A stretch of DNA of 64,000 nucleotides, taken from Terriglobia bacterium (GTDB lineage Bacteria > Acidobacteriota > UBA6911). Each line of letters starts with the position of its first letter. Within the stretch, counting starts at the first letter, position 1. A model generated the notes under the pieces. It saw only the letters and a list, made by a program, of their open reading frames with translations, was not told the origin of the DNA and ran no database searches. Below are positions 49,555 to 64,000 of the stretch, piece by piece. Both the position numbers and the translations under genes were made by a program. Location of the stretch: assembly GCA_020072565.1 (NCBI GenBank), contig JAIQGI010000028.1:1-64000 (forward strand). The letters are read 5' to 3'.

Positions 49555-50298
49555 TCAATGAATAGTGGTTTTGTTCTTGTCGTCGATCTTGCGCCTGACC
49601 TCGCCATAGTAAACTTCGAATTGTCGCTTCAGTTCCTCCCGTTTCCGATGGGCGTGGTAAAGCTGGAATCGCTGGATCCACGCGCCTCCCTTGAGGAACA
49701 CGAGGCCGACCAGGATGCCGCCGAGGTGCGCGATATTTGACACTCCCTGTTCACTTCCGGTGACCGAAAACAGAAATGCAAGGCCGCCCATGAAGAGCAC
49801 GAACCATTTGACCTTTATGGGGAAAAGAAAGTAGAGGTAGACGAGCCGGTTCGGATAAAGCAGCCCATACGCGAGCAGCAGGCCGTAGATCGCGCCGGAT
49901 GCCCCTATGGTGGCGGTGGGGCTGTTAACGCCCAAGAGAAACGAGCAAAAACCGGCACCGATTCCCGTAACGAAATAATAGGTGAGAAAGCGCTTCGAGC
50001 CCCATGCCCGTTCCAGATCATTCCCGAACATGTACAGGGTGAGCATGTTGATGAAGATGTGCATCAACTGGTGCGTGTCATGGAGAAACATGTAGCTGAC
50101 GAACTGCCAGATCATGAATTCGTGGGTAATGCGCCAGGGAATCAGTCCGAAATATGCTTCGATAAAACTGCTGCCCGCCGCCCGGGTCAACCACTGCAGG
50201 ACAAATACCAGGACGTTGATCGCAATCAGCGTTCTGATGCTCTTGGTTATGGGGCCACCAAAGGAAACCGAAGGCGAATTGTAAGAATAATAAGGCAT
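49555..50298 (-). CDS. Rhomboid family intramembrane serine protease
   Basis: 247 residues from ATG 50298 (TTG 50304 is in frame but not favoured). Six membrane helices, with the WRITHEFMIWQFVSYMFLHD segment (the WR loop), HIFINMLTLYMFGNDLE (HxxxN), the catalytic GASGAIYGLLLAYG (Ser) and AHLGGILVGLVF (His), give a complete Ser-His dyad. The C-terminus is a basic cytoplasmic tail of about 40 residues. Substrate unknown. Confidence 0.92.
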   Translation of the reverse strand: MPYYSYNSPSVSFGGPITKSIRTLIAINVLVFVLQWLTRAAGSSFIEAYFGLIPWRITHEFMIWQFVSYMFLHDTHQLMHIFINMLTLYMFGNDLERAWGSKRFLTYYFVTGIGAGFCSFLLGVNSPTATIGASGAIYGLLLAYGLLYPNRLVYLYFLFPIKVKWFVLFMGGLAFLFSVTGSEQGVSNIAHLGGILVGLVFLKGGAWIQRFQLYHAHRKREELKRQFEVYYGEVRRKIDDKNKTTIH

Positions 50299-50510
50299 GA
50301 CCAAATATTAGGGGAACCTGGGGGGGAATTCAATCGGCGATCTCCGCCCCTGCGACAGGTCTCGGGTCAAAAATAGCAAAGAAATTCAGCGAGATGCGGC
50401 CACGATCCGCGGGACTTGAATCCCCGTGGCCCCATTTTCGGATGGTCGATGTCCGCGCAGGAGATGATAGAATGTACGCCTTTGACGATTAGACGTAAGG
50501 CGGACAATAC

Positions 50511-51260
50511 ATGAGAATTGACGGGCGAAACCCCGACGCGATGCGGGAAGTGCGGATCGAGCTGGATTATACCAAGCACGCCGAAGGGTCGGTGCTGATC
50601 AGCCTTGGTGACACCAGGGTATTATGCACCTGCAGCATCGAAGACAAGGTGCCCCCCTTCCTCTATAAATCAAACCAGGGTTGGGTGACTGCGGAGTACG
50701 GGATGGTTCCCCGCTCGACCAACACGCGCTCACCCCGTGAGGCGGCGCGCGGCAAACAGTCGGGCCGCACGGTCGAGATTCAGCGCCTTATCGGCCGCTC
50801 GCTGCGCAGCGTGGTCAATCTTCCGCTCCTGGGGACCCGCAGCCTGCTGGTCGATTGCGACGTGATTCAGGCCGACGGCGGAACCCGCACTGCATCCATC
50901 ACCGGCGGGTTTCTGGCGCTCGCTATCGCGATCAACAGACTTCTGGAACGGAAGCTGCTGGAATACTCGCCTATTGTGGATTTCATCGCCGCCACCAGCG
51001 TTGGCATGATCGACGAGGTCCCGTGCCTGGACCTGAACTACGAGGAGGATTCCAGCGCCGCCGTGGACATGAACCTGGTCATGACCGGAAGCGGCCGCTT
51101 CGTCGAAATCCAGGGGACGGCCGAGAAACAGCCGTTTACGGCAGATCAGTTGCAGACTTTGATCGCGCTGGGTTCCCTGGGAATCGGGCGGTTGATCCGG
51201 GCACAAAGGTCGGCCCTGGAGGCGCGTGGCATCGACCTCCGCCGCCTCTGCGGGTCGTGA
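50511..51260 (+). CDS. rph: Ribonuclease PH
   Basis: 249 residues. It has [60 protein letters not shown] and [20 protein letters not shown], the RNase PH signatures. It trims tRNA 3' ends by phosphorolysis. A tRNA gene lies 1 kb downstream. It is followed by rdgB, a frequent partner. Confidence 0.97.
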
Positions 51261-51403
51261 GTCTTTTTCAAGACTCCGGAGGTATCGAGGGAGTTCCGGC
51301 AGATTCCCTGGAGTGCTCAAGCCCGTTTGCGCCTTGTTTTTCCCCCGATCGCAAGGCGGCGAGCCTTGGTAATTCGCCTCGAGAGTTTTTTTCTGCAGTC
51401 AGA

Positions 51404-52018
51404 ATGAAAAGAGTGAAAAATCAGAGCCTGACTCCGACCATCGTCCTGGCCACGCATAACCCAGGGAAGCTCCGCGAGTTCCGGGCTCTCATGGAGCCGG
51501 CGGGATGGGAGATCATCGGATTGTCGGATCTTTCCATCAAGACAGATGTGGAGGAAACCGGGGGCTCGTTTGCTGAGAACGCGCGCCTGAAAGCGCTCAG
51601 TTACTCTCGAGACACGGATCTTCCCGTCCTTGCCGATGATTCGGGGCTCGAAGTCTTTTCTCTCGGCGGCAGGCCTGGAGTCGGTTCCGCGCGCTACGCG
51701 GGCCCCGGCGCCTCGGATGCGGATCGCGTGCGCAAGCTTCTGGCGGAGCTGGAACATACTCCGGGATCGCGGTCAGCCCGATTCGTCTGCGCCCTGGCGC
51801 TGGCACAATGGGGAGTCCTTCTGCTCGAAACGGAAGGTGAGTGCCGTGGTGAAATCACGGCGGAGCCGCGGGGCAGTCAAGGCTTCGGCTACGATCCTGT
51901 CTTTTGGGTACCCGAGCTGGGGAGAACTTACGCTGAGCTGGACAAAGAGGAGAAGAATCTGCACAGCCACCGCGCGCACGCGGCCAGGGCGCTCCTGGAT
52001 AAGCTCGGGCGACGATGA
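51404..52018 (+). CDS. rdgB: dITP/XTP pyrophosphatase (RdgB/HAM1)
   Basis: 204 residues from ATG 51404; the upstream in-frame extension lies in rph in another frame. Motifs: TIVLATHNPGKLREFRALME, GGSFAENARLKALSYS, LADDSGLEVFSLGGRPGVGS, GFGYDPVFWVPELGRTYAEL and SHRAHAARALLDKL. It removes non-canonical purine nucleotides such as dITP and XTP from the pool. The 143-base gap to rph allows co-transcription. Confidence 0.96.
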   Translation: MKRVKNQSLTPTIVLATHNPGKLREFRALMEPAGWEIIGLSDLSIKTDVEETGGSFAENARLKALSYSRDTDLPVLADDSGLEVFSLGGRPGVGSARYAGPGASDADRVRKLLAELEHTPGSRSARFVCALALAQWGVLLLETEGECRGEITAEPRGSQGFGYDPVFWVPELGRTYAELDKEEKNLHSHRAHAARALLDKLGRR

Positions 52019-52042
52019 GATGACAGTCGCAGCCAAATAAGC

Positions 52043-52091
52043 CACCACGAGATGCACGAAAAGGGTCACTCGTGTTCCGTGTCTTTCGTGG
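52043..52091. repeat. TTTCGTG-family palindromic repeat
   Basis: CCACGAGATGCACGAAAA on the left is answered by TCGTGTTCCGTGTCTTTCGTGG on the right, an imperfect palindrome of TTTCGTG-like units. It belongs to the same family as those at 11994 and 16077. It lies between rdgB and the tRNA gene. Confidence 0.5.
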
Positions 52092-52263
52092 TCCGATCCA
52101 GCGACTCAGCGGATTGTGTTCCCAAAGCCCGAGTCCGCATTTTCCCTTTGCAGTGAACACCGTGAGCCACGCAACACAAGCAGGAAGAGGGTCCCGCGAG
52201 ACGTCTTCAGCTCCGGTGGCGCAAAGACTTGAACTGAGATAGAATGAAAACTTCTCCTCAGGT

Positions 52264-52340
52264 CGGGGCATAGCGCAGCCTGGTAGCGCGCCTGCCTTGG
52301 GCGCAGGAGGTCTCCAGTTCAAATCTGGATGCCCCGACCA
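52264..52340 (+). tRNA. tRNA-Pro (anticodon TGG)
   Basis: 77 bases with all arms: acceptor CGGGGCA/TGCCCCG, D-arm GCGC...GCGC with the AGCCTGGTA loop, anticodon stem CCTGC/GCAGG with loop CTTGGGC (TGG anticodon), T-arm with GTTCAAATC, discriminator A and an encoded CCA end. No intron. Confidence 0.97.
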
Positions 52341-52686
52341 CTCCTCCATGTCAGCACTGAATCCACCGCTGCCCGGGCCGCGCGCGATACCGCAAACGCT
52401 GTAAGAGCCCCTACAGGCTGCCTGGCGTCGGCCCCATCAGAACCTTTGGCCTCTCGCCGTCTCCGACCCGAATTATTCGTGAAGCAGAACCAAACGCCGG
52501 TGAAAGGCAACAAAATTGGACTCGGATAAACGCTGGCAGGAGCTTTTGCACGCCGACCAAAACCGAATGGTCAGCGTCTTTCCGCGTCGAAAATTTCTTT
52601 TGATCGCATATTCACGAATAATCCGGGCTAAGCGCCCACCGGATCGAATCTGATTCCTGTTGATTTGGCCCCGCCATCTGTCGATC
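52341..52686. other. Gene-free stretch after tRNA-Pro
   Basis: About 350 bases with no supportable gene, terminator or clear promoter. A frame overlapping the tRNA 3' end (52329-52529) was judged spurious. Confidence 0.5.
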
Positions 52687-52818
52687 ATGAACAGATTAAC
52701 AATAGGTTTCGGTCCCGTGGCCCAATCGCAGCTTGTGCCTGATGGTGGAGTGAGTCCGCATTTTTCAGGGCTTTTACGCGTACCTCGCGAGGGCGAAATT
52801 CAGACACTCAGGGAGTGA
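52687..52818 (+). CDS. Possible small protein or peptide (43 residues)
   Basis: A short ATG frame starts MNRLTIGFGPVAQSQ and ends seven bases before the asparagine-synthetase-like gene, so translation could be coupled. It has no signal peptide, membrane helix or recognised leader motif, and there is no clear ribosome-binding site at its ATG. It lacks the lasso-peptide features of an Asp or Glu at ring position 7-9 and the conserved leader Tyr-Pro block. It may be a genuine small gene, a peptide substrate of the neighbour, or chance. Confidence 0.3.
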   Translation: MNRLTIGFGPVAQSQLVPDGGVSPHFSGLLRVPREGEIQTLRE

Positions 52819-52825
52819 GGCAGGA

Positions 52826-54670
52826 ATGATCGGCGGATATATCTACAGCCATTGCGACAGGGACATGGAAGGACGCCTGGCACACAAATTGGGTCCCTCG
52901 CAGAAAAGGATCCAGGCATGGGACAACGGCTACCTGTTTTATGACGAGCCCTTTCGAAGCGAGCAGACATCGTGCCTGGCCGCAGATCAGGTAATCCTGT
53001 TAAGCGAGGACATATTGGTGACCTCGGCTGCCGACGGCAAGTATCGTCGGCTCCGCCTCGAAAAAGACTTCTGCGAGACCGTTGCAAAATCGGAAACCGA
53101 GGCTTTCAATGCCATCCAGAGCGACTGTCGGATGGCGGTTCTATGCAAGAAGGATTCCGACAAGTTCCTCTATCTGGTCTCCAACAGGGCGGGGTCGGGG
53201 AGGATCTATTATCACAAGGTGAAGTCGGGCGTCATCTTTTCCTCCGATTTGCGATTCCTTTTGTCACTCGTTCCTTTCGATGTAAGCTATCTGGGCATCT
53301 ACTCCCTGCTGAAGTACGGGGCGATCCCCGAACCTCTTACCATCAACGAAAGCATCGCTGCGGTGCCGCCGGCCCACTACCTCAAGTATGACGTGAACAC
53401 CGGTCAGCAGGCGGCCCTTCCCTTTTTCAGGTTTCAATTCGCCTTCGAACATGACGGTGATCTTACCGGAGTCGCCGAGGTGAATCTCGACCCGGTCAAG
53501 AATGCGCTTCGGAAGTCCGCAAGATTTCTGGGAGAGAATCAGCCCGCCATGTTGCTGAGTGGGGGCATTGACTCAAGTTTATACGGCTGCTACTTGAGCC
53601 AGGCAAGCAATGACCGCCTCCGGGCGTTTTATTGCGCGTTTGGACCGGAGGATCCGGAGCTGCAATTCGCCAAAGCAATCGCCGAGCGCATCGGGACCAC
53701 ACTGCAGGTTGCAGTAATGCAGAAATCCGATGCTCTGAACATCCTGGACGATGTGGTCCGCCTGACGGATCACCCCTTTTCTGATTTTTCGAGTCTGCCG
53801 ACGGCCTTCGTTTTGAAATACATAAGGGAACATCTGACCGGCCAGGATATCGTGGTCGAGTGTAATGGCGGTGATGATTGTTTCGGATTTCCTGACCTGC
53901 AAAATGAAACGAAATATGCGCTTAAGCACCGTTTCCCGAGATCCCTCAAGAAGGTGATCTCTGCGCTGCTCAGGCATTCACCCCATTGGAAGTGGGAATC
54001 CAGGGAGGGAGCACTGGCGAGAGTTGCGGCCATCTCGGATGTTCATGAATTGACGCCGCTGAACTACTTCCTGGTCCTGGCGCCGGTAAACTATTTGAAC
54101 CTGGAAACACCCGGGGAATGGGACGAAACGCTGGGGGATGTGATGGAGAGCGTATTTGCCGACTGCGACGGAGGGCAAGCAAAGCTCGGCTATCATGCGA
54201 GAATAACCGTCAGGCAGTTGCTCCATGTGAACAGCCGCAGGTGGGCGGCAAAGGCGTTATCGACCGGTCAGAGCCTGGGTCTCAGGATTGTATACCCTTA
54301 CATATGGCAGGACATTCTGGTGGAACAGGGGAAATTGCCCTGGAATGCCAAGGTTCACAACGGCGTTGTTAAATGGCCCTTGAAGAAACTCCTCGAAGAA
54401 TACATGCCGCAAACGTTCATCTACAGAAAAAAGAGCGGATTTGTGCCTCCTTTTGCCCGTTGGCTGACCGACAGGGATTTCAATCAGAAAGTGCGCGACA
54501 TTGTGCTGAACAGAAACGGCTTTGTGACCAGGATCGTTCCCGCGCGCGTGTTGGAAGAGTTGCTCTCGGATGCCTCGAATGGAAAGAAGTTGAGGTTTCC
54601 CATCCTGAACTTTCTCTGGGGGGCGATATTTGCAGAGTCCTGGATCCAGGAGCAGAAACGCCGGGATTGA
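52826..54670 (+). CDS. Asparagine-synthetase-like protein lacking the glutaminase cysteine
   Basis: 614 residues. The N-terminal region (about 1-200) has the position of a class II glutamine amidotransferase domain but begins MIGGYIYS, with Ile where functional enzymes have Cys2, so ammonia release from glutamine is not expected. The AsnB C-terminal domain keeps the ATP pyrophosphatase motif LLSGGIDSS (243-251) but has CNGGDDCFG (346-354) where AsnB has a GEGADE-type loop. Cys-less relatives include beta-lactam synthetase and lasso-peptide cyclases, which form amide bonds without free ammonia. Product unknown. The gene is isolated, convergent with the aor cluster, and looks less GC-rich than the dcw genes. 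Confidence 0.75.
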   Translation: MIGGYIYSHCDRDMEGRLAHKLGPSQKRIQAWDNGYLFYDEPFRSEQTSCLAADQVILLSEDILVTSAADGKYRRLRLEKDFCETVAKSETEAFNAIQSDCRMAVLCKKDSDKFLYLVSNRAGSGRIYYHKVKSGVIFSSDLRFLLSLVPFDVSYLGIYSLLKYGAIPEPLTINESIAAVPPAHYLKYDVNTGQQAALPFFRFQFAFEHDGDLTGVAEVNLDPVKNALRKSARFLGENQPAMLLSGGIDSSLYGCYLSQASNDRLRAFYCAFGPEDPELQFAKAIAERIGTTLQVAVMQKSDALNILDDVVRLTDHPFSDFSSLPTAFVLKYIREHLTGQDIVVECNGGDDCFGFPDLQNETKYALKHRFPRSLKKVISALLRHSPHWKWESREGALARVAAISDVHELTPLNYFLVLAPVNYLNLETPGEWDETLGDVMESVFADCDGGQAKLGYHARITVRQLLHVNSRRWAAKALSTGQSLGLRIVYPYIWQDILVEQGKLPWNAKVHNGVVKWPLKKLLEEYMPQTFIYRKKSGFVPPFARWLTDRDFNQKVRDIVLNRNGFVTRIVPARVLEELLSDASNGKKLRFPILNFLWGAIFAESWIQEQKRRD

Positions 54671-54791
54671 AAGGGAGATGGCAGTCCCCTCCCATGCCGG
54701 CCGGCTGGTTTCAGCAATTCATGCGTCACCCGAAAGCGCGCCCGACACGAGTTCGGAAAGAACAGGGGCCAACAAATTCGAACTGAGTTGT

Positions 54792-55070
54792 CTACCCGCC
54801 CGCAACCGGAGGGAAAATGGCAATGATATCCCCCTCCGCCAGTCTGGTTTCGAGATCGTCGAGAAATCTGACATTCCTGCCGTTTTCCAGGATGTTGACG
54901 TAAGGTCTCAGCTGCCCGTCGTCTTCCAGAATCCCGGGCAAGAACGCCGCGTGCCGCTTTCCCAGGACCTGCAACAACTCGCGCACAGTCTGCCCGTCCG
55001 GCAGGGAAATCACCAGCTCCTTCCCCAGAAGCTCGCGGAAGTCAGCGAACGTTCTCACGGTCACGTTCAT
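54792..55070 (-). CDS. MoaD/ThiS-like sulfur-carrier protein of the aor cluster
   Basis: 92 residues from ATG 55070 (a longer opening to 55154 lies inside the ThiF gene). The ubiquitin-like fold is indicated by VRTFADFRELLGKELVISLP, LEDDGQLRPYVNILENGRNV and the ending DIIAIFPPVAGG. The C-terminal Gly-Gly is the adenylation/thiocarboxylation site. It would carry sulfur for molybdopterin dithiolene synthesis, as needed for the tungsten cofactor of the aldehyde oxidoreductase two genes away. It overlaps the ThiF-like gene by 29 bases and is the last gene of the cluster. Confidence 0.9.
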   Translation of the reverse strand: MNVTVRTFADFRELLGKELVISLPDGQTVRELLQVLGKRHAAFLPGILEDDGQLRPYVNILENGRNVRFLDDLETRLAEGDIIAIFPPVAGG

Positions 55071-55797
55071 GGCGCCTGCTCCCGCAGTCCGGACAGGCCG
55101 GATTCCTCTCCAGCTGAAAAATATCCACTTCGATCCGCAGACCGTCCCAGACAAACAGGCGATTGAAAAGATTCTCCCCTTTCCCTGTCAGGACCTTGAC
55201 GGCTTCCGTTGCCTGAACGGAGCCGATCACGCCGCAAGTAGCGCCGAGAATGGGAGTGGCCGCTGCCGAAGGATAGTCGCCCCAAATGCATGACAGACAT
55301 GGGGTCTGGTATGGGACGATGGTAGTTACCTGTCCGTAGAACTCCCGCACCGCACCATGAACCAGAGGAATGCCCAGGCGCAGCGCAACCCTGTTCAAGA
55401 CGTGCCGGCTCGGGAAATTGTCCAAGGCATCCAGCAATAACGAAGCATCGCCCACTAACTGCTCCGCATTGGCATCGTCCAGTTTGGTGATAAGGGCATG
55501 CACCTGTATATGGGGATTCAGCGAAATGAGGCGTTCCTGCAGAACCGTGGCCTTGGTTTTCCCTACGTCACAGCCACGGTAGAATATTTGCCGATTCAGG
55601 TTGCTGATATCTACACTGTCGGGATCCGCGATGCGGATACAACCGACCCCGGCCGCTGCAAGGTAGCCGCATATGGCTGCGCTCAAACCGCCGGCGCCGG
55701 CAACAAAAATCGAGGCCTTTCGGAGCCTTTCCTGTCCCTCCTCGCCCAGCACGGGAATTTGGCGGCTGTAGTGGTCCAGTTCGGACACGGTCAGCAT
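55042..55797 (-). CDS. ThiF/MoeB/HesA-type adenylyltransferase
   Basis: 251 residues. The nucleotide loop SIFVAGAGGLSAAICGYLAA (about 29-48), the DPDSVDISNLNRQIFY segment with GKTKA (Arg/Lys of the ATP site), ALDNFPSRHVLNR and the zinc Cys pairs CLSC (about 168-171) and CPDCG near the C-terminus are the E1/MoeB features. It should adenylate the C-terminal glycine of the MoaD-like protein encoded next. No rhodanese domain is present. Twelve bases separate it from the FAD oxidoreductase gene. Confidence 0.92.
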   Translation of the reverse strand: MLTVSELDHYSRQIPVLGEEGQERLRKASIFVAGAGGLSAAICGYLAAAGVGCIRIADPDSVDISNLNRQIFYRGCDVGKTKATVLQERLISLNPHIQVHALITKLDDANAEQLVGDASLLLDALDNFPSRHVLNRVALRLGIPLVHGAVREFYGQVTTIVPYQTPCLSCIWGDYPSAAATPILGATCGVIGSVQATEAVKVLTGKGENLFNRLFVWDGLRIEVDIFQLERNPACPDCGSRRHERDRENVR

Positions 55798-55809
55798 AGC
55801 TGTGTTTCC

Positions 55810-57021
55810 CTAGGATCTCGTGCACTTCCTCATAGCCTGGGAATAATCATAACTCCCATGCAGGAGGGACCCGGCGCAATGAGTGACGTCAACCTTCCGG
55901 CGGAGCAGGCTGTTATAGAGTCCCTCGTTCCTGACTTCGCCCACAAAGATGAATCCTTTGAGAATTCCGTGATCCAGCACAATCTTGTGATGAAAGCCCG
56001 GGCCTCCTTCACTGCGCACCTCCGGTGCCTCGGCCCTTGCCATGCCGGCCGTGCAAATGGAAGTATCGAACACCCGCAGAACGTTACGGGAATAGCTGCC
56101 TTCATAGGCAAGTGGCCGGGAGGCCATGTTGTATGCCGCCACCATCCCTTGTTCAAAAGCCAGGGGCCAGAGCGCGTTGACCCGGGATTCCCCGTATACG
56201 ATATCCCTGGTCTCGGCCACATCACCCGCAGCATAGATGCCCGGGATATTGGTTTCCATGTGCTCATCCACCGGAACACCATGGCGGATATTGATGCCGC
56301 TCCCGGTCAGGAAGTTCAAAGTGGGAGTGACCCCTTTGCCGAAGATGATCGCATCACACAATCTTCTCTCCCCGGAACTCAGGAAGACTTCACCGGACGG
56401 GCAGATGCTCACGATGTCCGTACGCTTGTGGATTTCCACGCCTCTTTCCGCGAGCTTTTTCTCCACCAATGCTGAGGACGGCTCATCCAGCATCGTGGAA
56501 AACACGCGGTCCGAGCTGATCACGAGGGTTATCCTGAACCCCAGCTTGCAGAGCGCATCGCTGAGTTCCAGTCCCACGGGGCCTGCGCCCGCAACTACGG
56601 CATGTCCGGTCTTTCTCACCTTCAGCAGTTCCTGGACTCCCCGCACATCCGGAATATCCCGAATCGTGAAAACGAAAGGCAGCCGGCTGCCGTCAACTTC
56701 TGGCCGGAGTGGCGCGGCACCCGCGGCGATGAGCAGTCTGTCGTAGCAGAGTTTCTTTCCCGAGGTGGTCCTCACTTCCAGCTTCTCAGGATTCACCTCA
56801 GCCGCTTCCTCGCCCAGAGCCATCTCCACTCCCGCGGGCACACGCAGAAACATCCGTTTCTCCTCCACCGCCCCGGTGAGGAGATAAGGAAGCGCAATCC
56901 TGGCATAGGGTGGAAATTTCTCTTTGGCCAGAATTGTCACCCGGCTCTTTTCCTCTATGCGTCGTAGAGTGGCCGCCGCACTAAGTCCGGCGGGCCCGCC
57001 GCCGATGATCAGATATCGCAA
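55810..57021 (-). CDS. aorC: FAD/NAD(P)-dependent oxidoreductase, AorC-like subunit
   Basis: 403 residues from TTG 57021, preceded by AGGGAG seven bases upstream. The N-terminal FAD loop RYLIIGGGPAGLSAAATLRR, the internal NAD(P) loop HAVVAGAGPVGLELSDALCK (about 141-160), and the second FAD motif IPGIYAAGDVAETRDIVYGE (about 263-282) define a pyridine nucleotide-disulfide-type reductase; no redox-active CxxxxC disulfide is visible. In Aromatoleum-type aldehyde oxidoreductases the FAD subunit passes electrons to or from NAD; the same is inferred here from the cluster. It could alternatively serve rubredoxin or ferredoxin. A 161-base gap precedes it. Confidence 0.82.
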   Translation of the reverse strand: MRYLIIGGGPAGLSAAATLRRIEEKSRVTILAKEKFPPYARIALPYLLTGAVEEKRMFLRVPAGVEMALGEEAAEVNPEKLEVRTTSGKKLCYDRLLIAAGAAPLRPEVDGSRLPFVFTIRDIPDVRGVQELLKVRKTGHAVVAGAGPVGLELSDALCKLGFRITLVISSDRVFSTMLDEPSSALVEKKLAERGVEIHKRTDIVSICPSGEVFLSSGERRLCDAIIFGKGVTPTLNFLTGSGINIRHGVPVDEHMETNIPGIYAAGDVAETRDIVYGESRVNALWPLAFEQGMVAAYNMASRPLAYEGSYSRNVLRVFDTSICTAGMARAEAPEVRSEGGPGFHHKIVLDHGILKGFIFVGEVRNEGLYNSLLRRKVDVTHCAGSLLHGSYDYSQAMRKCTRS

Positions 57022-57182
57022 GATCGTCTCCCTACCTCGACTCTCAAAAGCTCAACTCGGGGGGTGCGGAGGGTAGCAGAGGACGCAGGGCTCAGATGGC
57101 CTCAATCCCGAGCTCTCTGCATTCCACCGCACTTTCTGCGATGATCGTTTGCTTTTCATCAAAATAGTGGAAACAGCCTCTG

Positions 57183-58991
57183 TTACACCCTGAGCCCTAA
57201 TGCCTCCAGCTTTTGTTGAGTGGGTACTCCGGCAGGGTCCCAACCCCGAAGTGTGTAATATTCCGGCAACATCTTATCAAGGCGGTTTACGTATCCCTTG
57301 GTCGGCCCGCCGGGAATGGGATCATTCAACATTCTTGCCGGGAGCGTGTCATCTTTGGCGGTAAAACCGGCCTTCAGATTGTAAAGACGCTCGAGATTCC
57401 AGATGCGCTCGCCTGCCTGGAGGAACTCTTCAGTCGTGTACAGCGAGCCGGTCGCCGCGCTCACAAGTTCTGCCAGGTCATCACCGCCCAGGCCAAACGT
57501 GGTAAACAGGCACATGCCGGAAGAATCGATGGCAGCGGTGAGATTCTGGAAGATGATATCCCATTGCGCTTTGCCTTCTGTGGCGAGGTTGTCGAGCTTC
57601 ACCGGATTCCCCAGGATTTCCACGGCCGTCATATAGCCGCGCACATGGCAGCCGCCGCGGTTGCTGGTTGCGTAGCTGAGCCCCATGCCCTGGACCGCGC
57701 GCGGGTCGTAGGCCGGCATCTCCTGTTTTTTGACACTCATGGAGTACTCCGGATGACCATAGCTTTCTGCGAGCCGGTAGCTTCCCAGCCCGAGCTTTTT
57801 GCCAAAACCTTCGCCCACGGCCGTCTTGCGCACCATCTCGACCATGCCCTTGGCATTGCCGAAATTTAAAGCAATGCCGTCTGTGTCTGCGCTGGTGATA
57901 ATGCCGTGTTCAAAGAGATCCATGGCACAAGCCACCGTCGCGCCCAGGCTGATGGTATCGATGCCGTATTCGTTGCAAAGGTAGTTGGCCTTGGTGATGG
58001 CGTCGAGGTCGTCTACACCGCAATCGGGTCCCAATGCCCAGGCGGTTTCATACTCCGGCCCCTCCCCCTGCCCTGCGAACTCGGGATTCGTAACCCTGGT
58101 GGCACGACCGCAACTGATGGTGCAGGAAAAACATCCGCGCGGGCGGATAAGCAGCTCTTTGGCCAATGATTCGCCCCCGACCCTGTCGGCGGTCGCAAAA
58201 GCGGATTCGCGGAAGTTCCTGGTCGGAAGGCCGCCATTTTCATTGAGGATGTTGATGAGAACATCTGTGCCGTACAGGCGCAGTCCCGCCCCTCCGACGG
58301 GATGAGCCTTGAGCTTGTCTATGGCCTTCACCGTCACGCCGCGAAACGCCTTGGGATCCGGCACGCGGACCGCGCCGGTCCCCCGCACGGCGACGGCCTT
58401 AAGTTTCTTGGAACCCATCACTGCACCCACTCCAGACCGGCCGGCGGCACGGTTGCACTCGTTCATGATATTGGCCAACAGTGTCAGGTGTTCTCCCGCA
58501 GGGCCGATGCAAGATACGCTGGCCTCTTCATCCGTGAGCGCGCGGATTTTGTCGGTCGTCTCAGGAGTGGTCTTCCCCCACACCGGGGAGGCATCGCGGA
58601 TTTCCACCTGGTCGTCGTGGATCCAGATGTACACCGGCTTTTCCGCCCTGCCTTCGACAATAACTGCATCGTAACCGGCGTATTTGAGCATCGCGCCAAA
58701 CATCCCGCCCGAACTGGAAGCTGCGATCGTGCCTGTCAGGGGTCCCTTGGTGACAATGTTCCAGTGCGATGACGATGGCGCGTTGGTCCCGGAGAGAGGC
58801 CCGGCCGCAAAAATGAGTTTGTTGGCAGGACTGAGAGGATCGATAACAGGACTCACCTCCTGAGACATGATGCAGGTGCCCAGGCCGCGGCCGCCTATGA
58901 ACCGGCGAGCTACTGCCGGGTCCAGGGTCTCCTTGCCGATACTGCCTGTCGTGAGGTTGATTCTCAGGATACTCCCTATCCACCCGTACAT
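57183..58991 (-). CDS. aorB: Tungsten-containing aldehyde:ferredoxin oxidoreductase, catalytic subunit
   Basis: 602 residues from ATG 58991 (GGAGG nine bases upstream, inside the ferredoxin gene end); the longer opening to 59069 overlaps the ferredoxin gene. The N-terminus MYGWIGSILRINLTTG and RRFIGGRGLG are family signatures. The [4Fe-4S] ligands C287-x2-C290-x3-C294 and C494 fall at nearly the same positions as in the Pyrococcus furiosus enzyme. The family oxidises aldehydes to acids, or reduces acids, with a bis-molybdopterin tungsten centre. Which aldehyde is used is not shown by sequence. Part of a five-gene cluster. Confidence 0.93.
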   Translation of the reverse strand: MYGWIGSILRINLTTGSIGKETLDPAVARRFIGGRGLGTCIMSQEVSPVIDPLSPANKLIFAAGPLSGTNAPSSSHWNIVTKGPLTGTIAASSSGGMFGAMLKYAGYDAVIVEGRAEKPVYIWIHDDQVEIRDASPVWGKTTPETTDKIRALTDEEASVSCIGPAGEHLTLLANIMNECNRAAGRSGVGAVMGSKKLKAVAVRGTGAVRVPDPKAFRGVTVKAIDKLKAHPVGGAGLRLYGTDVLINILNENGGLPTRNFRESAFATADRVGGESLAKELLIRPRGCFSCTISCGRATRVTNPEFAGQGEGPEYETAWALGPDCGVDDLDAITKANYLCNEYGIDTISLGATVACAMDLFEHGIITSADTDGIALNFGNAKGMVEMVRKTAVGEGFGKKLGLGSYRLAESYGHPEYSMSVKKQEMPAYDPRAVQGMGLSYATSNRGGCHVRGYMTAVEILGNPVKLDNLATEGKAQWDIIFQNLTAAIDSSGMCLFTTFGLGGDDLAELVSAATGSLYTTEEFLQAGERIWNLERLYNLKAGFTAKDDTLPARMLNDPIPGGPTKGYVNRLDKMLPEYYTLRGWDPAGVPTQQKLEALGLRV

Positions 58992-58992
58992 G

Positions 58993-59472
58993 TTATTTCG
59001 CCTCCACAAATGTGTTCTTGAGCTCTCTTGCCACAACCTTCTGCCGTGCCCTGGCGGCATCCGTTTCATTCAGATACTCGAGCGCATTTACAGGGCAGAA
59101 AGTGACGCATTCAGGTGTACCATCACACAAATCACACTTCAGGATGCGGCGACGGGAAGTTTCATAGACAACTGCCCCAAATGGACAGGCCAGCGTGCAC
59201 ATGCGGCAGCCGATACACCGGGCTTCATCCCAAGCTATACGGTACCGGGCAGGATCGTTGTGCATCGCACTCGTAGGACAAACGGTCACACAGGGCGCAT
59301 CCTCGCATTGCTCGCATGTGGTCGGCACAGAGATCCCTTCCATTTCCCAGGAATGGACATGAATTCGGGAAGCAGGAAGCCGGAACTCCCCATCGTGAAA
59401 AAAGGAACATGCCAGCTCACAGTTATGGCACCCGGTGCACCGATCAGGGTAGATCATCAACATCTTTGCCAT
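58993..59472 (-). CDS. aorA: Polyferredoxin subunit with four [4Fe-4S] motifs, AorA-like
   Basis: 159 residues and 16 cysteines in four sets: CTGCHNCELAC, CEQCEDAPCVTVCP, CIGCRMCTLACP and CDLCDGTPECVTFCP. The architecture equals the electron-transfer subunits of DMSO-reductase-type and AOR-type enzymes, and its adjacency to the tungsten enzyme (1 base between stop and start) identifies it as the AorA-type partner. AGGAGGG five bases before the ATG gives strong translation. In characterised relatives several copies of this subunit chain together into a conducting filament; that cannot be judged from sequence alone. Confidence 0.88.
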   Translation of the reverse strand: MAKMLMIYPDRCTGCHNCELACSFFHDGEFRLPASRIHVHSWEMEGISVPTTCEQCEDAPCVTVCPTSAMHNDPARYRIAWDEARCIGCRMCTLACPFGAVVYETSRRRILKCDLCDGTPECVTFCPVNALEYLNETDAARARQKVVARELKNTFVEAK

Positions 59473-59890
59473 CTTAGCCCTCCTGAAACGAAAACAACCA
59501 TCCGAGCATGCGTGTAAGAATCGGCCGCTTTTCTTTGGGAAGCTAAAATCGAAGGGTCGATAGTCGGCCGAATGCCCCCCAGATCCGGGAGGACCTCATT
59601 CTATCCCAATTGCCAGCCCACCTGGCAGGCAATTCGCCAACAACCATGATGCAGCCTCTCATGCGCCGGGGCGCACCCTGCGATGCATGAAAATGTCTTG
59701 CCTGTACGGTCGGGAGTCGTCGATGTCGGGATCGGGATCGGGGTCGCAATCGCAGTCGCGGTCGCAATCGGTCTTTTCAGACTGTGAAGATCGATTGCGA
59801 CTGCGAAAGCGATCCCGATTCCGAGGTTTTTGGCGTTCTGGCACTATTTTCGATGCAGAGAGTAGTATTCGCAAACAGGGCAGGCTCTCC
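59473..59890. other. Upstream region of the aor cluster with a GATCGG/GTCGCAATCG palindromic repeat
   Basis: No gene is supported. At 59724-59770 the units ATCGGG, GTCGCAATC, GCAGTCGC and GGTCGCAATC repeat; at 59790-59823 the complementary CGATTGCGACTGCG and GCGATCCCGATTCCG follow, giving an imperfect hairpin of about 100 bases. The aor promoter must lie near 59475-59560 but no clear -35/-10 pair stands out. Confidence 0.5.
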
Positions 59891-60787
59891 CTACTTGCTG
59901 GAAATGATCCGATAACCTGCGGGTACCTGGAAAAGGTCCGGCGCCGGCTCATCGCGGCGAATGCCGGCAAGGCGAAAAATGGTTTCACCGGTCCGCGGAT
60001 CGTATTTCCGCGACATCACCTGCAGTTGGAGTTCCGGCGAGTACCAGTGCTCGGTGACGATCTCGATGGGCCGGTCGTTGCCGATGGCGGCGATCGGGAT
60101 TGTCTCCGTGATTCGCTTACCCTCAGCCACAATCCCTTCGATGATCTGCTTGCCCAGCTCCTGCCTGGCGACGTTAAGCTCTTTGGATTCCGGCTTCTCA
60201 GAAAGTGTGACAAGCTGTTGATCCCTGGCTCCCTGCATCTTAACGAAGGCGCGCTCCCCGGCTTCGCCGACCGACAGGGCCAGCGGCACGGTGCGGGCCA
60301 CTTGGTTCCGCACGTCGAGCACCCAGCACACATTTGCTACCGGATCAACGATCCAATCCTCGGTTCCGGACTCGCTTTCACGCCGCAGCCGGCCCTGGCT
60401 GTCACGATACATCTTGTAGCTACGGCTTTGCCGGATCTGCGTTCCGTCAGCCAGGATTTGTTTCGTTTCGGTTATGGCTTCCGCCGAGTAAGGGGCGTTT
60501 TTGACTACCGCGCCCATCAGTCCGAGCTGCGCGACCTTGCTCTGGATCAAGAGGTCAGCCTTGACTTTGTTCAGGGTAGCTTCAAGAACCTTTGCCTTGA
60601 TCACCTCAATCTGTGCGTTGATTATGTCATCAGCGACCTTGCTCTTTATCTGGATTTCAGCCTTGGCCTTGATCTGAGCTGCCTCCGTGGCAATCTTTGC
60701 CTTGATTTTGGCCGGGTCATTTCCCTGCGCGAATACGCAGGATGCCGCAATCGCGATCATTCCTATGGTCAGCAGTGCATTTTTCAT
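59891..60787 (-). CDS. Secreted protein of unknown function in an ECF sigma operon
   Basis: 298 residues from ATG 60787 (AAAGGA upstream), with a signal peptide (MKNALLTIGMIAIAASCVFA). A 60-residue Lys/Ile/Ala-rich helical stretch follows (about 27-87, for example IKAKIATEAAQIKAKAEIQI), and then a beta-rich domain with TQIRQSRSYKMYRDSQGRLR, VCWVLDVRNQVAR and the ending PDLFQVPAGYRI. The C-terminal layout recurs in secreted proteins encoded next to acidobacterial sigma/anti-sigma pairs; no function is known to me. Third gene after the sigma and anti-sigma genes, 43 bases on. Confidence 0.7.
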   Translation of the reverse strand: MKNALLTIGMIAIAASCVFAQGNDPAKIKAKIATEAAQIKAKAEIQIKSKVADDIINAQIEVIKAKVLEATLNKVKADLLIQSKVAQLGLMGAVVKNAPYSAEAITETKQILADGTQIRQSRSYKMYRDSQGRLRRESESGTEDWIVDPVANVCWVLDVRNQVARTVPLALSVGEAGERAFVKMQGARDQQLVTLSEKPESKELNVARQELGKQIIEGIVAEGKRITETIPIAAIGNDRPIEIVTEHWYSPELQLQVMSRKYDPRTGETIFRLAGIRRDEPAPDLFQVPAGYRIISSK

Positions 60788-60830
60788 GACTGTTCCTTTC
60801 AATAAAAACAATGCTCCCGGGTTGAATTAT

Positions 60831-61490
60831 CTATTTCAGGAAGCGAATGGCACGGGCCCGGCCACCTTCATCGATGATGACATCGGCCTGGATTTCTCCG
60901 GGGTCCCGCACAGGCTCCCAGGGAGACAGCACCGACGCGGGCAGGTTCATTCGCACTACGAAACCCATTTGAATGGGCTCGCCGTTGTCCAGCGCCAGGT
61001 AGTAGTCCACTTTGCCCGGTGCTGCTGACTTGGCCGGTGTCAGGGACGACGTCGCTTGCGGAACAGGCGACGCGGCCTGTAAAGGGTTTCCCACACCCGC
61101 TCCTGAAGCCTGTGCAACAGGCTGCTGCCCGACTGCCGGCTCAGAAGAAGCCGGGTGTCGACGGTTCGGAGTGACCACCAGCAACAGCAGAGCCACCATT
61201 CCCGCGGCGCCGAGCGCTGCCCAGCGCATAGGCCAGCCGCCACGCCGCATCGGAGCCCGGGAATGGATGCGAGCGAGAGCCGCCGCGTCACCCTGTTGAA
61301 ATTCGGCCATAGCAGGCTCCAGACAATCCATCAAAGCAGCGGTGTTTACGGCCCTGGCGCGCACCAGTTCGATATGGTTTCGGCAGCGCTCGCAGGAGAG
61401 CAGGTGCTGCGACGCGGTGCGCGCCGCGCCCGGCGGCAGTTCGCCGTCCAGACAGGCGCGCAGATCTCCATCGGTCAGGCATGCGGTCAT
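60831..61490 (-). CDS. Anti-sigma factor with zinc-finger (zf-HC2) domain
   Basis: 219 residues. The N-terminal zinc motif HLLSCERC (His-x3-Cys-x2-Cys, about 29-36) follows DGDLRACLDGELPPGAARTA; one membrane helix lies at about 92-107 (WAALGAAGMVALLLLVV); the extracytoplasmic part is Pro/Ala-rich and then a small domain. The start overlaps the sigma gene stop (ATGA), which couples their translation. It should sequester the sigma factor at the membrane until a signal releases it. Confidence 0.88.
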   Translation of the reverse strand: MTACLTDGDLRACLDGELPPGAARTASQHLLSCERCRNHIELVRARAVNTAALMDCLEPAMAEFQQGDAAALARIHSRAPMRRGGWPMRWAALGAAGMVALLLLVVTPNRRHPASSEPAVGQQPVAQASGAGVGNPLQAASPVPQATSSLTPAKSAAPGKVDYYLALDNGEPIQMGFVVRMNLPASVLSPWEPVRDPGEIQADVIIDEGGRARAIRFLK

Positions 61491-62062
61491 GGTTCGCCTC
61501 CGTATAATGCGCAGTATCTCTTTTCGAATTCGGCTTCAGCCCTTGCCAGGAGTGTGCCGATGGAGCCACGCTTGAGCTTCAGCAAGTCAGACAGCTCTCG
61601 ATAAGAGAGTCCGGTGTTGCGCAGGAGCAGCAGTTGCGCCTGCGCCGGCTTGAGGATGGCAAGGACCGTGCGCACCTGTTTTTTCTTCTCCTCGCGCAGG
61701 ATCGCGCCGAGCGCCTCCGCGCCGTGCAGGTGCGCGAACGCGGTCTCACCGGCCATCTGCTCCTTGCGCTTTCGCCGGGAATCGGCGCGCATCATGTCCA
61801 GACCGAGATTCACAGCCGTGCGATAGAGCCAGCCCGCAAGATTGGTCTCGGGCCTGAACAGGGCGGGGCGCGAAGATAACCTCCAAAAAGCCTCGGCTAC
61901 TAAATCCTCGGCTTGGCCCCGCTCTCCGACCAGGCGTGTGAGAATGCCGACCAGTCGGCCGTAATGCTCCCGGAAAACATCCTCCAACGTGGAGCGCGCA
62001 GTGGACCGCCCATCCAAGCTTGCCTGAAACAGATTCGGCGGGGCATCCTCTCCAAGATCCAT
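61487..62062 (-). CDS. ECF-type RNA polymerase sigma factor
   Basis: 191 residues. Region 2 includes LEDVFREHYGRLVGILTRLV, QAEDLVAEAFWRLSSRPALF and NLAGWLYRTAVNLGLDMMRA; region 4 has LLLLRNTGLSYRELSDLLKL and RGSIGTLLARAEAEFEKRY. It lacks regions 1 and 3, as ECF factors do. It probably drives its own operon and genes such as the secreted protein downstream; no promoter motif could be assigned with confidence. Confidence 0.93.
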   Translation of the reverse strand: MDLGEDAPPNLFQASLDGRSTARSTLEDVFREHYGRLVGILTRLVGERGQAEDLVAEAFWRLSSRPALFRPETNLAGWLYRTAVNLGLDMMRADSRRKRKEQMAGETAFAHLHGAEALGAILREEKKKQVRTVLAILKPAQAQLLLLRNTGLSYRELSDLLKLKRGSIGTLLARAEAEFEKRYCALYGGEP

Positions 62063-62332
62063 GCTCTATAAACGACAGCAGGTGCTGGAAAATGACAAAA
62101 AAGTTTTGCTCGAAGGTCCAGGCAGCGCCTCATGCGTGCTCCCGGTTGGGAAGCGCTGTCCCCAAAGGGATGGATCTATGCTGTTACTGCTTGAGCAATT
62201 GAGCCTTTGAGTCCTGGACGCTGTCCCATCTCCGGCTTCTTGAAATATTTCCGCGAGATTTTCTCCTCGCCCGATGGTAGTCTGCTCCCAATAAAGCAAG
62301 ACAAACCACTCACCATCGGAGGAGGAACACCC

Positions 62333-64000
62333 ATGCTGCGCTCGTCCCATCGCGTTATCGCCCCAGCTGTTTTCCTGGCTCTCGCGCTTACCGGCGCCTG
62401 GAGCCTCCGGTTGCATGCAGCCCGGCAGGCCGGCAGGGCTCAGACCGGCAGCGGCATCGACCCCATGATTCTCAACACGTTCCGCTGGCGCAGCATCGGC
62501 CCCGAGCGGGGTGGACGGTCCATCGCCATCTCAGGGGTGAAGGGGAGGCCCAAGGAAGGCTACTTCGGCGCCACAGGCGGCGGTTTGTGGAAAACCATTG
62601 ATGGCGGCGAAAACTGGACGCCGGTGACGGACGGCCAGATCCACAGTTCCTCCGTAGGTGCCGTGGCCGTATCGGACACGAATCCCGACCTTGTCTTCAT
62701 CGGCATGGGCGAGTCGTGCATCCGCGGCGATGTCATGGAAGGCGACGGCGTCTACAAGTCGACCGACGCCGGCAAGACGTGGACGCACGTGGCGTTCCCC
62801 GACGCCCGGGTGATCTCCAAAATCCGCATCCACCCGCTCAACCCGGACATCGTCTTCGTTGCGGCGTTCGGCCGCCTCAGCATTCCCAGCGAAGAACGCG
62901 GCGTCTACAAAAGCACGGATGGCGGCAAGACCTGGAGGCGCACACTCTTCAAAGACAATAAGACCGGGGCGGTCGACATCTCCATCGATCAGCGGAATCC
63001 GAAAGTCATGTTTGCAGCGCTCTGGGAAGCCTATCGCATGGAATACACGATGTCGAGCGGGGGTCCGGGCAGCGGTCTCTACAAGTCGACGGACGGAGGC
63101 GAGACCTGGACGGACATTACCCGCAATCCGGGCTTGCCCCAGGGCGTCGACGGCAAGATCGGCGTGTCTGTCTCCGGCGCCGATTCCAATCGCGTCTACG
63201 CCATCATCGAGAATGCTAACGGCGGCCTCTTCAGCTCAGACGACGCCGGTGCGACGTGGAAGTCGGTCAACGAGGGCCGCAACATCCGCCAGCGCGCTTT
63301 CTACTACACTCATGTGACGGCAGACCCGAAGAATCGCGACATCGTCTACGTCCAGAACGTCGGCACGTTCAAGTCTACCGATGGCGGGAAGACATTGCTG
63401 AACTTCGCCGGCGGCGATTCCCACGATCTGTGGATTGATCCTGACGACACCAACCACATCATGCACGCCAGTGACAGCGGCGGTGCCGTCACCTATGCCG
63501 GCGGCGGGCAGTGGAGCGCACGGGATTTCCCCACCGGACAGTTCTACCACGTCGTGACCACAAGGCACGTCCCATACCACGTGTGCGGTGCGCAGCAGGA
63601 CAGCAGCACGATCTGTGTGCCGAGCAACACGGGCCTTGGCGGGGGCGGCGGACGCGGCGGCGCCGGAGGGGGGCGTGGTGGACGCGGCTCCGGGGCTCCG
63701 GCCACGTACGGCGCGGGGGGCGCCGAGCCGGGTTATATTGCGCCCGATCCGAAAGATCCCGACGTCTTTTTTGCGGGCGGCAACAACGGCTCGTTCATGA
63801 CCAGGATCAACCGCAAGACGGGCGAAAACCGGGAGGTTGGAGTGTATCCGCGCATGTTCAGCGGCGCGCCGTCCAGTGCGCTGGTCGAGCGTGTGCAATG
63901 GACCTATCCGATCATCTTCTCGCCGGTTGATTCAAACATACTCTACTCCGCCACGCAACACGTGTGGAAGACCACCACGGGCGGGCAGACCTGGGAGAAA
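62333..64000 (+). CDS. Secreted BNR/VPS10-type beta-propeller (glycosyl-hydrolase-like) protein, N-terminal part
   Basis: The first 556 codons of a gene that runs past the window end. GGAGGAGG precedes the ATG, and a signal-peptide-like helix (VIAPAVFLALALTGAWSL) follows. BNR/Asp-box repeats recur: GLWKTIDGGENWTPV, GVYKSTDAGKTWTHV, GVYKSTDGGKTWRRT, GLYKSTDGGETWTDI, LFSSDDAGATWKSV, TFKSTDGGKTLLNF and HVWKTTTGGQTWEK. This marks a sortilin/VPS10-like or sialidase-like propeller. Between repeats a glycine/arginine-rich insertion (about residues 430-453) is present. Members are abundant and mostly uncharacterised secreted proteins in Acidobacteriota; an enzymatic role is not shown. Confidence 0.85.
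   Translation, partial: MLRSSHRVIAPAVFLALALTGAWSLRLHAARQAGRAQTGSGIDPMILNTFRWRSIGPERGGRSIAISGVKGRPKEGYFGATGGGLWKTIDGGENWTPVTDGQIHSSSVGAVAVSDTNPDLVFIGMGESCIRGDVMEGDGVYKSTDAGKTWTHVAFPDARVISKIRIHPLNPDIVFVAAFGRLSIPSEERGVYKSTDGGKTWRRTLFKDNKTGAVDISIDQRNPKVMFAALWEAYRMEYTMSSGGPGSGLYKSTDGGETWTDITRNPGLPQGVDGKIGVSVSGADSNRVYAIIENANGGLFSSDDAGATWKSVNEGRNIRQRAFYYTHVTADPKNRDIVYVQNVGTFKSTDGGKTLLNFAGGDSHDLWIDPDDTNHIMHASDSGGAVTYAGGGQWSARDFPTGQFYHVVTTRHVPYHVCGAQQDSSTICVPSNTGLGGGGGRGGAGGGRGGRGSGAPATYGAGGAEPGYIAPDPKDPDVFFAGGNNGSFMTRINRKTGENREVGVYPRMFSGAPSSALVERVQWTYPIIFSPVDSNILYSATQHVWKTTTGGQTWEK

Follow-up and report, generated by a model that had tools for sequence, protein, structure and literature searches.

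Gene content of the cluster

The DNA analysed here (the window) is a stretch of 64,000 nucleotides (nt), positions 1 to 64,000 of contig JAIQGI010000028.1 (C28) of a Terriglobia bacterium. Our subject is a group of five intact open reading frames (ORFs) at positions 54792-59472, all on the minus strand, which by ORF and motif checks encode the three subunits of a tungsten oxidoreductase (WOR) and two accessory proteins. By composition the cluster is a Class III WOR (WorLSN), presumably with NAD+ as the electron carrier. By descent it is not the AorABC enzyme of Aromatoleum, but belongs to a separate, uncharacterised branch that is shared with syntrophic bacteria. The genes, in their direction of reading, are:

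58993..59472, minus strand: WorS, AorA-like polyferredoxin, 159 amino acids (aa), four [4Fe-4S] motifs (Fer4 families)
57183..58991, minus strand: WorL, AorB-like tungstopterin subunit, 602 aa (AFOR_N and AFOR_C)
57022..57182, no strand: spacer between WorL and WorN, 161 nt
55810..57021, minus strand: WorN, AorC-like FAD-/NAD-binding subunit, 403 aa, TTG start (Pyr_redox_2)
55042..55797, minus strand: E1-like adenylyltransferase of the ThiF/MoeB family, 251 aa (ThiF)
54792..55070, minus strand: MoaD-like sulfur carrier, 92 aa, ending in ...PPVAGG (ThiS)

WorL begins with the ATG at 58991, a single nt past the stop of WorS; an ORF start at 59069 was rejected as too early. A longer ORF reaching 55154 was likewise not accepted as the MoaD-like gene; the accepted start is 55070, with an overlap into the E1-like gene. 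The Pfam matches of WorL were far beyond chance (AFOR_N, PF02730, 4e-80; AFOR_C, PF01314, 7e-154), and the remaining proteins matched Pyr_redox_2 (WorN, PF07992, 3e-54), ThiF (E1-like, 3e-67), ThiS (MoaD-like, 5e-18) and the Fer4 families (WorS). An earlier reading made from the sequence only had claimed five co-directional genes with these subunit types, which was borne out by the ORFs and by Pfam and NCBIfam. Its further statements of 16 cysteines in WorS, a C-terminal Gly-Gly in the MoaD-like protein and the WorL ligands Cys287, Cys290, Cys294 and Cys494 were all confirmed by the motif check.

The identical five-gene set and order (S-L-N-E-D) was found in Smithella (L055, contig JAGPFC010000001.1), with identities to the window of 72% for WorS, 74% for WorL, 54% for WorN and 51% for both the E1-like and the MoaD-like protein. 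The spacer between WorL and WorN measures 161 nt in the window versus 13 nt in Smithella, and a promoter scan of the 161 nt gave no promoter-like site above chance. The Moco/tungsten riboswitch RF01055 was not detected; the sole Rfam match at window positions 50000-64000 was a tRNA, and no RF01055 match was obtained in the genome.

Putumbaka et al. 2026 sorted the WORs into five classes, of which Class III consists of WorL, WorS and the FAD subunit WorN; its 179 members are spread over 9 of 92 clades, and AaAOR (AorABC) is the sole characterised one (PMC13328260). As early as 2006, AOR (aldehyde oxidoreductase) genes were described as associated with those for MoaD, MoeB and a pyridine disulfide oxidoreductase, in a gene cluster that might be mobile (PMC1779556). 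The WorL of the window has both AFOR domains, as Class III requires. Neither a WorABC module (NuoE/F/G-like, Class IV) nor [NiFe]-hydrogenase or NuoL-like genes beside WorSL were seen at window positions 50000-64000 or at 60000-79630 of C28.

The subunits and their closest relatives of known structure

All four ligands of the iron-sulfur cluster are present in WorL, and of the residues that touch the cofactor or the substrate in solved AOR structures it retains Thr242, Glu315, Tyr428, His449, Tyr453, Phe496 and Phe499. Since the aromatic pocket (Tyr453, Phe496 and Phe499) is kept, aromatic as well as aliphatic aldehydes are plausible substrates. Two contact positions are changed, Arg76 to His76 and Asn93 to Ser93. 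His76 is the equivalent of AaAOR Arg75 and PfAOR Arg76, a residue that either touches the phosphate of the pterin or forms a bridge from the cofactor to the cluster. In a survey of 105 WorLs, position 76 was Arg in 101, Lys in one and His in three, namely those of the window, Smithella and Syntrophus. The Ser93 is found in Smithella L055 and in several other WorLs. The best match in the PDB was 9mqx_D (779 bits, 58% identity), followed by 9g7j and the Pyrococcus furiosus AOR 1aor (699 bits); AorB of Aromatoleum (8c0z_A) ranked fourth with 619 bits. Judged by its chain composition, 9mqx appears to be the bifurcating WOR1 of Acetomicrobium mobile (AmWOR1).

The 16 cysteines of WorS show the standard spacing, with four CxxC-type motifs for four [4Fe-4S] clusters, as expected for Class III. 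Its best PDB match was again 9mqx (chain E, 142 bits), followed by AorA (8c0z_C, 124 bits). The C-terminal tail, NETDAARARQKVVARELKNTFVEAK, fits the RKK..A.KFK..FEEV pattern of the bifurcating and hydrogenase-linked WorS, and the AorA tail signature of Aromatoleum, DADWTGL.RM..WA, is absent from it. In AorA the C-terminal helix drives filament formation, and its conservation is reportedly confined to the AaAOR subclade (PMC10413684). The predicted structure of WorS, of low confidence (57), hints at a C-terminal helix at residues 138-157. As the tail is of another type, the filament evidence from Aromatoleum does not carry over. The window enzyme may still form oligomers by analogy, because the WorSL of AmWOR1 likewise builds nanowire-like assemblies (PMC13328260).

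WorN was modelled with a predicted local distance difference test score (pLDDT) of 90, and its best PDB match was AorC (8c0z_E) with a template modelling (TM) score of 0.91. The GxGxxG motifs for FAD and NAD and Arg41 are kept, and the cysteine of CoA-disulfide reductases is lacking. From the PF07992 match (3e-54) and the fold we concluded that WorN is an FAD-binding NAD(P) subunit and not a ThiS/ThiF protein.

The E1-like protein keeps two zinc-binding CxxC pairs; MoeB models scored best for it, yet all were under their cut-offs. For the MoaD-like protein the SAMP1 and moaD_arch models were above cut-off and the bacterial moaD model was below, which places it in the archaeal MoaD/SAMP1 type. 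The genome also encodes MoaA, MoaE, three MoeA and a second gene of the ThiF/MoeB family.

Phylogenetic placement

WorLs were sampled by a scan of 84,980 species genomes, which gave 80 loci with neighbourhoods, and by a search of the host phylum, which added more; the WorL tree comprised 96 rows. The window, Smithella and Syntrophus formed one clade (support 100), which was united (support 100) with seven WorLs whose operons carry a hydrogenase-type membrane module. The window branch stands beside or within this hydrogenase-linked clade, as the tree does not separate a sister from a nested position. The Aromatoleum-type Class III enzymes formed a separate clade (support 99). The approximately unbiased (AU) test rejected a single clade of all Class III WorLs (p=7e-6) and a clade of the window with Aromatoleum (p=1.3e-5); these p values are somewhat optimistic, as the groups were picked after the first tree was seen. 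The WorS tree agreed, with 100/100 support for the window, Smithella and Syntrophus and 97/98 for their union with the hydrogenase-linked WorS. In the WorN tree, AorC and its relatives formed their own clade (100/99), which excluded the window WorN; the latter joined the WorNs of Smithella and Cryosericum (100/99). The wider group around it (94/94), without resolved internal order, includes homologs beside CooS/CooF-like genes and others.

The sequence-only reading had described an AorABC-type enzyme whose composition equals that of Aromatoleum. The multisubunit FAD/NAD-coupled composition, the cluster's own MoaD/E1 pair and the AorC-like fold of WorN stood, and the Aromatoleum descent did not. 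The equation also went too far, with WorL, WorS and WorN outside the Aromatoleum clades, a different WorS tail and His76. Clustering with AORs that lack FAD partners had been named as evidence against that reading, and this is largely what we found, as the nearest WorLs beyond the two orthologs have a hydrogenase module.

The hydrogenase-linked loci (L035-L039, L056 and L058) carry WorSL followed by co-directional genes for a NuoL/HyfB-like protein of about 1000 aa, NuoB-, NuoH- and NuoI-like proteins and a [NiFe]-hydrogenase large subunit. Their WorL identities were 64-66% within the host phylum, 64% in Propionicimonas and 62% in Anaerolineaceae. All six loci that extend to the hydrogenase gene contain both NiFe motifs, RVCGICSNVH and DPCYSCT; the contig of L058 ends early. 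The predicted product of such loci is an aldehyde:proton oxidoreductase bound to the membrane, comparable to formate hydrogenlyase. This type lies outside the five WOR classes (PMC13328260) and was not found in the literature searched.

We observed WorN-like FAD/NAD proteins that adjoin CooS-/CooF-like genes (L151, L154, L156 and L157; the CooS label comes from reading the sequence). With such relatives the WorN module looks like a reusable adapter, and this suggests that one FAD/NAD adapter type may serve both carbon monoxide dehydrogenase (CODH) and tungsten oxidoreductases. Another apparent Class III arrangement, in the order WorN-WorL-WorS and with a distant WorL (311 bits), was seen in genome G120 (L150, 7267-10938).

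Genomic setting

The cluster lies in a lineage-specific segment of 23.3 kb, from 52341 to about 75617 of C28, whose left border is a tRNA gene:

52264..52340, plus strand: tRNA-Pro(TGG)

In the congener G322 a rhomboid gene, rph, rdgB and the tRNA-Pro (80 bp, 100% identical) are followed by a tatD-like gene within about 1 kb, versus 23.3 kb between the tRNA-Pro and the tatD-like gene in the host. The housekeeping context claimed earlier is therefore misleading, as the cluster sits in a segment of 23 kb that is absent at that site from the congener. Besides the WOR cluster, the segment contains an asparagine synthase-like gene (no match to a glutaminase domain), an extracytoplasmic function (ECF)-type sigma factor and a putative anti-sigma gene. 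In G322, which is 92% complete, a close WorL is lacking, nor did any other of 396 sampled genomes of the host phylum yield one above 66% identity. A direct repeat of the tRNA end that would mark an integrated element was not detected beyond chance 12-mers. The most economical reading is a horizontal gain of the segment, though relatives may have lost it. Four WorL genes occur in the host genome (7.46 Mb, 98% complete); the three further paralogs (L044 on C8, L045 on C19, L046 on C20) are arranged as MoaD-WorL, WorS-WorL and WorL alone.

Proposed function and alternative explanations

We consider it likely that the five genes specify a Class III WorLSN whose branch is separate from that of Aromatoleum AorABC, and that this enzyme oxidises aldehydes with NAD+ and was acquired horizontally. 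The window WOR should work like AorABC, yet is not Aromatoleum-type by descent. An aldehyde and water would be converted to the acid at the tungsten-bispterin in WorL, and the electrons would run from the [4Fe-4S] cluster of WorL (FS0) along the four WorS clusters, reach the FAD of WorN and end on NAD+. Sulfur for the pterin cofactor would come from the E1-like and MoaD-like proteins. The aldehyde/acid couple lies at about -500 mV and NAD at about -280 mV (PMC13328260), so that oxidation would be the favoured direction. The "energy-saving" conversion proposed earlier finds no support in the sense of energy conservation, as NAD-coupled aldehyde oxidation is downhill and the cluster encodes no coupling site; the gain for the host would be NADH and the removal of aldehydes. 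The branch most likely originated when a WorSL pair related to the hydrogenase-linked and bifurcating WORs was joined with a general FAD/NAD adapter, and it most likely reached the host genome through horizontal transfer.

Several points weigh against this assignment. The window clade has only three members in the present sample, and one of them, in Syntrophus, is on a truncated contig (L057), which ends after WorS-WorL. His76 and Ser93 alter two positions that touch the cofactor or its Mg2+, so that activity is not assured. The use of NAD is argued from homology. The WorN tree has a weakly supported deep root (64/15), so that WorN may have been recruited or may have been present ancestrally and lost elsewhere. 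A search of the genome with PF12849, PF13531 and TIGR03730 gave no TupA-, WtpA- or ModA-type binding protein, although PF12849 would presumably catch TupA and although the genome holds four WorL genes. The matches of the periplasmic binding protein (PBP) type were two PstS and one sulfate-binding protein, besides a MoeA fusion. Tungsten in the enzyme is accordingly putative, and the metal may be molybdenum instead; either oxyanion may enter through a sulfate-type transporter. Of the cofactor and metal functions that the sequence-only reading had asked for, molybdopterin synthesis was found (MoaA, MoaE and MoeA), but no tungstate importer.

A transferred copy in decay or without activity, or a protein working with another metal or none, could account for the failure to find an importer, the patchy distribution and the two changed contact positions. 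We regard this as improbable, because every frame is open, the iron-sulfur ligands and the main catalytic residues are kept, and the identical His76 recurs in two further species, which speaks against decay. A standard AorABC belonging to the Aromatoleum subfamily, with AorA filaments capped by AorC, would explain the identical three subunit types and accessory genes, the AorC-like fold as the nearest solved one for WorN, and a WorS tail of similar length with a helix modelled at 138-157 at low confidence; contradicted by the three subunit trees and the AU tests, by the missing AorA tail signature and other tail pattern, and by His76, it is very unlikely. The enzyme could also run in reverse, with NADH or another donor driving the reduction of carboxylic acids to aldehydes. 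AOR enzymes are reversible, AaAOR reportedly reduces acids with H2 (PMC9295118), and the orthologs are in Smithella and Syntrophus. Under normal conditions, however, NADH, at about -280 mV, is unable to reduce acids, for which about -500 mV is needed (PMC13328260), and the cluster contains no bifurcation or membrane module, which makes this direction hardly probable.

More weight, though still a minority share, goes to an ancestral Class III, in which WorN was present early and was then lost or replaced by hydrogenase or bifurcating modules in the sister lineages. In its favour, Class III members are scattered at several places of the WorL tree, and the WorN tree is not resolved at its base; it would, however, need several losses, and the WorN of the window branch lies among CODH-linked homologs and others in the broad group (94/94), apart from AorC. 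Tentative, and less likely than not, is a further step beyond the assignment that we prefer, NAD+-coupled Class III of a distinct branch. The Arg76 to His exchange at the contact of W-bispterin and [4Fe-4S] cluster would mark a functionally distinct branch, descended from a hydrogenase-linked WorSL in which an FAD/NAD adapter took the place of the membrane [NiFe]-hydrogenase module. This branch would have passed between syntrophs and the host lineage, with His76 retuning the electron exit for NAD+.

Position 76, with a His specific to this clade, lends itself to simple mutation to probe what the Arg76 contact does between the tungsten cofactor and the iron-sulfur cluster. One WorSL core is found with three electron-exit modules (bifurcating, hydrogenase and FAD/NAD), which makes modular exchange directly testable. 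As the Class III composition is polyphyletic on the WorL tree, the filament and kinetics of the Aromatoleum enzyme cannot be assumed for other members.

Comparison with known systems

With AorABC of Aromatoleum aromaticum (8c0z) the window enzyme shares the three subunit types, the WorN fold, the four iron-sulfur ligands of WorL, the aromatic pocket residues and accessory genes of the MoaD type. It differs in the separate clades of WorL, WorS and WorN, with the WorL union rejected by the AU test, in the WorS tail, in His76 for Arg75 and in having an archaeal-type MoaD plus an E1. The presumed Class IV bifurcating WOR 9mqx provides the closest solved WorL (58%, 779 bits) and WorS (142 bits) and has a similar WorS tail, but in the window a single FAD/NAD subunit stands instead of the WorABC (NuoE/F/G-like) module. 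The hydrogenase-linked WorSL loci, a sister or enclosing clade (WorL 100, WorS 97/98), have no WorN and carry the [NiFe]-hydrogenase and NuoL/H/B/I-like membrane genes in its place. The Moorella-type AOR (M. stamsii, L122) resembles the window in its gene set, WorS-WorL-MoaD-WorN, but keeps Arg76 and falls in separate WorL, WorS and WorN clades. The Smithella cluster shares the five-gene order, His76 and Ser93 with the window, and differs in its more distant WorN (54%) and accessory proteins (51%) and in the 13-nt spacer between WorL and WorN.

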